Part shown: positions 62,481-63,517 of the stretch, piece after piece
How positions within the stretch are numbered: the first letter of the stretch is position 1
How the letters are laid out: each line of letters starts with the position of its first letter
DNA from: Oryzomonas sagensis
GTDB taxonomy: Bacteria > Desulfobacterota > Desulfuromonadia > Geobacterales > Pseudopelobacteraceae
DNA length: 64,000 nt
Assembly: GCF_008802355.1 (NCBI RefSeq)
Contig: NZ_VZRA01000002.1
Coordinates: forward strand, 281,642 to 345,641
Direction: 5' to 3'
Program-made: the position numbers and the translations under genes
Notes under the pieces: generated by a model
The model's database searches: none
Seen by the model: the letters and a program-made list of their open reading frames with translations, nothing else
Told to the model about the DNA's origin: nothing

Positions 62481-62657
62481 GGTACGTGCCTCGAACGATG
62501 CGCGCCGCCTGGCTGGATGTTGAGCAAGGCGGGGCGGCATTGAATAATTGATGCTTGTTTGTTACTGTTATAGGTAAGAATACACCATGAGGGCCACCCA
62601 TTAAAAGGCTGCCTCATGCGGTGAGGAGCATATCACAGAATAGGGGAGGAACACATC

Positions 62658-62801
62658 ATGGTAACAGAAAAACAGTGTCCCGAATGTCAGGGCAAGATGA
62701 TCCTGCTGCCCGGCTGAGGCGGCCTCTTCTGGCGGTGCCAGAAGTGCGGATTAAAGCTTATGTACAACAACGAACAGGATGCCGATTGCCGCTGTTCCTA
62801 A
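62658..62801 (+). CDS. Small zinc-ribbon protein with in-frame TGA (possible selenoprotein or pseudogene)
   Basis: Reading from ATG 62658, with GGGGAGG eight bases upstream, gives a 47-codon frame to TAA 62801 with one internal TGA at codon 20 (62715-62717). Sense parts: CPECQGKMILLPG before the TGA and GGLFWRCQKCGLKLMYN after it, a CxxC...CxxC ribbon like those in topoisomerase tails. Coding continues sensibly after the TGA. An 8-bp stem with GGT loop starts 9 bases after it, so selenocysteine insertion is possible. The alternative is a CGA (Arg) to TGA nonsense mutation, since ribbons of this type often have Arg or Lys there. Confidence 0.55.
62718..62744 (+). promoter_or_regulatory. SECIS-like hairpin after the in-frame TGA
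   Basis: CTTCTGGC (62726-62733), loop GGT (62734-62736) and GCCAGAAG (62737-62744) form a perfect 8-bp stem. The apical loop begins exactly 16 nt after the TGA and starts with G, meeting the bacterial SECIS rules as I recall them (16-37 nt spacing, G in the first two loop positions). Confidence 0.5.
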
Positions 62802-62813
62802 AGGAAGCCGGCC

Positions 62814-62963
62814 TTGACCTCTGCGGATTTGAAGACGTCGCTGCACCTCTTCGGCCTTGGCGAACGTGCGGCCATCGTGGAGATCAAGGCCCGTCACCAA
62901 AGGCGCATGTGGCGGCAGTTCAAGACCGATCCGTTGTGGGGGGAGAGGCAGGGGAGGGCGTAG
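62814..62963 (+). pseudogene. J-domain-like N-terminal fragment
   Basis: A TTG-started 49-codon frame (AGGAAG upstream) reads SADLKTSLHLFGLGERAAIV and EIKARHQRRMWRQF. The FGLGERA..EIKARH stretch resembles the start of J-domain proteins, but the HPD motif that activates DnaK is absent and the frame ends early. It is probably a remnant, 12 nt after the zinc-ribbon gene. Confidence 0.45.
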
Positions 62964-63072
62964 TTTTCAAGTTTTTGATGTTTGTCGGTCTGACCATGTG
63001 TTTTTGTTCTTGCAAAAATTATGATATGATAGCCCTGCCGGAATGAAGGAGAGTACAAAAAGGAGCAGCGCC

Positions 63073-63264
63073 ATGCAACCTGGGGAAGCGCAATACATCA
63101 CCAGCAGCACCGGCAGGAAAAAAGCCGTTATCCTGCCTATCCGCGAATACCAGCGGCTGCTTGAGGATTTGCATGATCTGACGGTAGTTGCCGAACGGCG
63201 TGAGGAATATCCCATTTCGCTTGATGAAATGAAGAAACGCCTGGCCGACCATGCCCCCGTTTAG
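63073..63264 (+). CDS. Phd/YefM-like antitoxin
   Basis: The 63-residue protein (YITSSTGRKKAVILPIREYQ, RLLEDLHDLTVVAERREEYP) has the layout of short antitoxins in which an N-terminal strand-helix DNA-binding part precedes a toxin-binding tail. The ATG at 63073 follows AAAGGAG; an in-frame ATG ten codons upstream is also possible. It overlaps the toxin start by 14 nt. Confidence 0.75.
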   Translation: MQPGEAQYITSSTGRKKAVILPIREYQRLLEDLHDLTVVAERREEYPISLDEMKKRLADHAPV

Positions 63265-63517
63265 CATCCTGCTAAAACCTTCGGTTGAGAAAGATCTGCG
63301 CAAACTTCCCGCATCCGTTGTGCGGCAGGTATTTGAAGCTTTTGAACGATTGGCCGAAGATCCCGCCGTCCCTCCCGACCGCAAACTATCCGGCACCGAG
63401 CGAACCTGGCGCCACAGAATCGGTGATTATCGCATCGTCTATGAACTGGACCTTGCCAACCGCACGGTCATAATTCACTATGTACGCCACCGCAGGGAAG
63501 TTTATCGTCGTTTGTAA
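63251..63517 (+). CDS. RelE/ParE-family toxin
   Basis: The 88-residue toxin has FSILLKPSVEKDLRKLPASV at the N-terminus, TERTWRHRIGDYRIVYELD in the middle and VIIHYVRHRREVYRRL at the end, the standard RelE pattern with basic residues (Arg-His-Arg) at the active site. It is translated by overlap with its antitoxin. The frame is intact, unlike the toxin at 18224. Confidence 0.82.
   Translation: MPPFSILLKPSVEKDLRKLPASVVRQVFEAFERLAEDPAVPPDRKLSGTERTWRHRIGDYRIVYELDLANRTVIIHYVRHRREVYRRL

Follow-up and report, generated by a model that had tools for sequence, protein, structure and literature searches.

A 47-codon gene in the 64,000-nucleotide stretch of Oryzomonas sagensis DNA analysed here (the window) very probably encodes a small selenoprotein, in which the UGA at codon 20 is read as selenocysteine (Sec); this reading rests on comparative sequence analysis. 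SelB carrying Sec-tRNA-Sec would bind a hairpin located just 3' of the UGA, and the ribosome would insert Sec, the 21st amino acid, at residue 20 rather than stopping. The resulting product of 47 residues would be a cytosolic selenoprotein. The evidence comprises the strict conservation of the TGA and of the stem that follows it, the signature of protein-level selection before as well as after the TGA, the Sec machinery present in the genome and the alignment of the Sec position with a Sec/Cys column in a related family.

Gene organization and encoded protein

The frame occupies positions 62658-62801 of the forward strand, translates as MVTEKQCPECQGKMILLPG*GGLFWRCQKCGLKLMYNNEQDADCRCS* and ends in a TAA stop codon (62799-62801). 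The TGA at codon 20 is its sole internal stop, and with this TGA read as Sec the product is MVTEKQCPECQGKMILLPGUGGLFWRCQKCGLKLMYNNEQDADCRCS (47 residues). The features of the locus are collected in Table 1. The initial annotation, made from the letters of the window, had described a strong ribosome-binding site, a frame with no defect other than the TGA at codon 20, sensible coding on both sides of this codon and, 16 nt beyond it, a perfect 8 bp stem with a GGT loop. Each of these points held: GGAGG stands 8 nt before the ATG, the in-frame TGA is single, purifying selection is found before and after the TGA, and the geometry of the hairpin was confirmed in every particular. A purine-rich GGAGG-like site precedes most orthologue starts, and in the alignment the C-terminal tail of most orthologues retains either CxC or CC.

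Table 1. Features of the candidate selenoprotein locus (window coordinates).
Feature	Position	Strand	Evidence
Probable selenoprotein CDS	62658..62801	+	Translation; orthologues; selection 5' and 3' of the TGA
In-frame TGA, codon 20, probable selenocysteine codon	62715..62717	+	45/45 distinct Geobacterales orthologues; Methylomirabilota homologue L122
Shine-Dalgarno GGAGG, 8 nt 5' of the ATG	62645..62649	+	Sequence; similar sites in orthologues
First CxxC knuckle CPEC, residues 7-10	62676..62687	+	Both Cys invariant
Second CxxC knuckle CQKC, residues 27-30, overlapping the hairpin 3' arm	62736..62747	+	Both Cys invariant
C-terminal CxC tail, Cys44 and Cys46	62787..62795	+	C44 and C46 in at least 90% of rows
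Bacterial SECIS-like hairpin, 8 bp stem	62726..62744	+	Perfect pairing around a GGT loop 16 nt after the TGA; identical in all Geobacterales orthologues; pS = 0 over codons 23-29

Orthologues and selection

A search of 97 related genomes gave a strong match in 44, and each of these matches holds exactly one internal stop, which is always TGA. More than half of these relatives lack the gene, which is therefore dispensable. Scanning 84,980 species genomes yielded further named orthologues; all of them read through the TGA to a second CxxC, except L125, from a draft genome of Geotalea toluenoxydans. In L125 the TGA and the stem are present but the frame around them is disturbed, by sequencing error or by decay, and it stands outside the 45 sequences considered below. 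The gene is distributed over many Geobacterales species, including the cultured Oryzomonas japonica, Trichlorobacter thiogenes and Geomonas species, and the closest named match is the O. japonica homologue, with 96% identity when the Sec position is scored as a mismatch. Weak profile matches from beyond the order (L134-L138) were judged not to be orthologues, and a plasmid search for the gene returned zero matches.

Geobacterales account for 45 of the 46 distinct nucleotide sequences. Codon 20 is TGA in all 45, which come from many genera, and no Arg, Cys or other sense codon is found at this position in any of them; conservation counts across these sequences ignore relatedness. Codons 24-29 (TTC TGG CGG TGC CAG AAG) are likewise identical in 45/45, and codon 23 ends in C throughout, even in the two sequences with a changed residue (CTC, TTC, CAC). 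The value of pS is 0.000 over codons 23-29, against 0.62 over codons 4-19 and 0.73 over codons 30-39. The two glycines flanking this region lie outside the stem and use varied synonymous codons, GGC (24), GGG (12) and GGT (9) for Gly21 and all four for Gly31, while at the protein level Cys30 and Gly31, after the hairpin, are invariant. In the FAH genes nearby, only 27% of the Arg codons are CGG, the codon that is fixed in the stem in 45/45. The value of dN/dS is approximately 0.15 before the TGA and 0.08-0.20 after it, and codons 30-39, with their excess of third-position changes, evolve as protein. The synonymous invariance of the stem and the low dN/dS on both sides therefore point to selection acting both on the stem RNA and on the protein before and after the TGA. 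Common descent alone is insufficient to account for the invariance of the stem, because synonymous sites outside it are near saturation.

A longer and more distant homologue was observed in a Methylomirabilota genome (L122, 3995-4168; MDCPKCHIEMLVFGDUGGSFWRCQKCG...); both the TGA and the stem are retained in it, with a GTT loop instead of GGT.

SECIS-like hairpin and selenocysteine machinery

The hairpin is composed of the arms CTTCTGGC (62726-62733) and GCCAGAAG (62737-62744), which pair perfectly around the loop GGT (62734-62736), and the distance from the TGA to the loop is 16 nt. It thus presents the bacterial SECIS arrangement of a stem-loop just 3' of the UGA with a G in the apical loop. 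In the whole window, a perfect 8 bp hairpin occurs within 20 nt after 5 of 1700 TGA triplets. The folding z-score of the hairpin region is only -0.54, no better than that of shuffled sequence, and folding energy was dropped as evidence on this ground. Covariation is uninformative, the stem being invariant within Geobacterales with zero compensatory changes to count. By itself the hairpin is weak evidence; the conservation of the TGA together with the stem codons is far beyond chance.

The genome (3.6 Mb, order Geobacterales) contains a selA match of 611 bits, two matches above the SelB cut-off and a selD of the Sec type, itself with an in-frame TGA. Three tRNA-Sec genes score above the Rfam cut-off (C2:464003-464096, C4:151198-151291 and C5:45573-45666), and that at C5:45573 lies approximately 1.2 kb from the selB match at C5:43308-44420. 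Two of the three tRNA-Sec genes score equally, and three tRNA-Sec genes with two SelB matches exceed the usual single copy.

Relation to NF041197 and other dual-CXXC groups

The best named family for the window protein is NCBIfam NF041197, `dual CXXC motif small (seleno)protein', against which it scores 21.4 bits (cut-off 40) in a match that spans profile positions 1-27 only. Both families have a C-x2-C-x9-U/C-x6-C-x2-C core with the same spacing. Profile-profile comparison (hhalign) aligns them without gaps over 33 columns with a probability of 96.7% and an E value of 4.7e-10, scores that shared Cys patterns inflate; more weight therefore goes to the agreement in the Sec/Cys column. At this column the NF041197 members of many genomes carry Sec and those of other genomes carry Cys, with identical spacing in most of the members fetched. 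A Cys homologue aligned to the Sec is therefore found in the related family, at the same column, and no Cys orthologue was found in the close family. The remark in the initial annotation that Sec at this position would replace no known catalytic Cys needs correction, as this column holds either residue in NF041197.

NF041197 also has a SECIS-like hairpin after its TGA; that of the window family is approximately 6 nt nearer to the TGA, over codons 23-29. The two families differ further in the acidic C-terminal region of NF041197 (profile positions about 28-53, ending DRL/DRI), in place of which the window family has a short Cys-rich CxC tail, and in the motif around the Sec, LPGU in the window protein and RxU in NF041197/OS_HP3. 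The NF041197 cut-off is passed in 63/297 genomes across the phylum and by 0/117 of the genomes searched in the order. On these sequence relationships the window family is best described as a sister subfamily, a distant relative of NF041197 not filed as a member.

In a 2026 inventory NF041197 appears as OS_HP3, from an Olavius algarvensis symbiont, with the motif RxU (Table 1 of PMC13188914). The same inventory places `hypothetical protein DW' (GxU) under the NF041197 model (PMC13188914); DW, from Desulfosarcina, originates from the deep-Sep paper (PMC12013277). The GxU-motif sequences that we fetched, equated with DW by the published motif and not by the DW record, share the Cys-Sec-Cys spacing with the window family; they differ from it in their C-terminal region, and their profile match to it is weak (35.6%), against 97.7% for this DW-like group and the NF041197 profile. 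More small dual-CXXC selenoprotein groups were observed below the NF041197 cut-off, of the GxU and PSUQG/PDUQG types (L060-L069, L078, L079; L068, L075), often as a second gene alongside a true NF041197 member.

Predicted fold and possible role of the Sec residue

An AlphaFold2 model, built with 27 sequences and with the TGA read as Cys, has four strands (residues 4-6, 13-19, 22-27 and 33-35) and a mean pLDDT of 75, falling below 50 in the tail. Residue 20 is modelled in the turn of the central β-hairpin formed by strands 13-19 and 22-27. The structural neighbours are mostly zinc ribbons and all are weak (best VIA Z 4.6; Foldseek E 0.28), as is expected because only about 40 residues are ordered. 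Sequence searches with the window protein gave only zinc-ribbon matches, weak in the PDB and below threshold in Pfam. The likeness to known zinc-ribbon domains (the RPB9 N-terminal ribbon, the topoisomerase I ribbon, ZifS and TFIIB) consists of the two CxxC knuckles and the predicted β-hairpin. To our knowledge, none of the RPB9, topoisomerase I, ZifS and TFIIB ribbons carries Sec at the end of its hairpin; in layout the proposed Sec tip resembles the catalytic hairpin tip of TFIIS-type ribbons. The moderate-confidence model predicts that the protein is a zinc ribbon whose two CxxC knuckles would bind one Zn, as suggested by the invariance of the four Cys, with the Sec at the tip of the hairpin.

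In zinc ribbons the hairpin turn sits remote from the metal knuckles. Since the Sec is placed in this turn, away from the knuckles, an exposed reactive group is likelier than a Zn ligand, and the Sec quite possibly acts as an exposed redox nucleophile, for which the CxC tail would provide resolving or relay thiols. Once recoding is accepted, the Sec could also be imagined as a ligand of a metal or metalloid (Zn, Hg or As) in a protein of metal trafficking or detoxification rather than of redox chemistry. The Cys-rich tail and the two CxxC motifs would suit such a ligand, and small zinc ribbons can serve as metal chaperones. However, the modelled position between strands 13-19 and 22-27, far from the knuckles, tells against it, as do the conserved neighbours, among which no metal-resistance genes are prominent, and we regard this role as unlikely.

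Alternative readings of the TGA

The conservation of the hairpin exceeds what the protein needs, which would suit a peptide of 19 residues that stops at the TGA and is followed by an attenuator or an mRNA stability element instead of a SECIS. However, the region downstream of the stem (codons 30-39) evolves as protein, the second CxxC completes the zinc ribbon and the Cys-column members of the related NF041197 are translated straight through, so that such a peptide is highly improbable. The coding evidence itself is also compatible with readthrough by a route other than Sec, such as a suppressor Trp-tRNA or programmed readthrough, for which no specific support was found; we give it a very small chance, since the genome encodes the Sec machinery, the geometry of the hairpin is that expected of a bacterial SECIS and relatives have Cys or Sec rather than Trp at the aligned position. 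A true stop followed by decaying sequence, whether a pseudogene or the CGA-to-TGA nonsense change offered as the counter-explanation in the initial annotation, would fit a single TGA in a short frame and hairpins after 5 of the 1700 TGA triplets in the window, but is refuted by the TGA in 45/45 orthologues, with a sense codon in none, and by purifying selection after the TGA in a frame that has no other stop.

Selenocysteine insertion at codon 20 accordingly remains the reading that we adopt. The new small selenoprotein proposed at the outset is supported by the TGA and stem in 45/45 orthologues and by the Sec machinery; the checks suggested with that proposal gave selA, selB, selC (tRNA-Sec) and selD all in the genome and, among the orthologues, TGA in 45/45, CGA or CGG Arg codons in none and a conserved stem-loop.

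Genome context and the FAH-family neighbour

Of the orthologue loci, 41 have 700 bp or more of upstream sequence, and in 36 of these a gene of the FAH family (PF01557, 231.7 bits; NF007967, 220.6 bits) precedes the selenoprotein gene on the same strand at a distance of 19-113 bp. The neighbours beyond this pair differ between genera and include what we take to be phosphoglycerate mutase, thiamine genes, ribosomal protein L21, pyruvate phosphate dikinase and phospholipase D. The conserved linkage suggests an operon with a shared function, and the chance that in most Geobacterales the selenoprotein belongs to the same pathway as the upstream FAH-family hydrolase seems to us only slightly short of even. 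Within such a pathway it might repair or protect the FAH-family enzyme or handle an electrophilic metabolite.

In the window genome the FAH gene is elsewhere (C1:865876-866526, 65% identical), flanked by mutase and phospholipase D genes and without an adjoining selenoprotein. As the two genes are apart here, the selenoprotein gene appears to have moved, and the partnership cannot depend on linkage. At this locus (L140; C1:865876-866526) the FAH gene is directly adjacent to the phospholipase-D-type gene, only approximately 85 bp separating the two.

The selenoprotein gene of the window adjoins a divergent SEC-C/YkgJ-like gene and a J-domain remnant. The latter, the ORF at 62814-62963, is a J-domain gene with its middle missing when compared with sister genomes, and a Pfam search of this short ORF gave zero matches; in the sister Oryzomonas genomes L011 and L031 a longer, intact J-domain frame lies just downstream of the selenoprotein. 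Further along, an overlapping small pair (63043-63264 and 63251-63517) resembles RelB/RelE-type antitoxin/toxin genes and is found in the same place in O. japonica (L080).

Novelty and significance

No prior report of the window family was found in the main texts of the openly accessible papers searched. It is not listed under its own motif in the main text of the inventory published in 2026, which covers 119 families of prokaryotic selenoproteins (PMC13188914), nor included in the selenoprotein lists for three Geobacter species (PMC1794560), and none of the library models used recognises it above cut-off. Such a family is easily missed because standard gene callers end at the TGA. We therefore consider it a new subfamily of selenoproteins in Geobacterales. 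We tentatively picture this uncatalogued subfamily as one in which the tip of a zinc-ribbon hairpin presents a reactive Sec and which serves as a redox or repair partner of the FAH-family hydrolase.

With this subfamily, the group of dual-CXXC selenoproteins extends beyond what the existing profile captures. The subfamily would also make an unusual design testable, in which selenium is carried on the tip of a zinc ribbon and not in a CxxU or UxxC motif, and the conserved FAH-family neighbour provides a first lead on its function.
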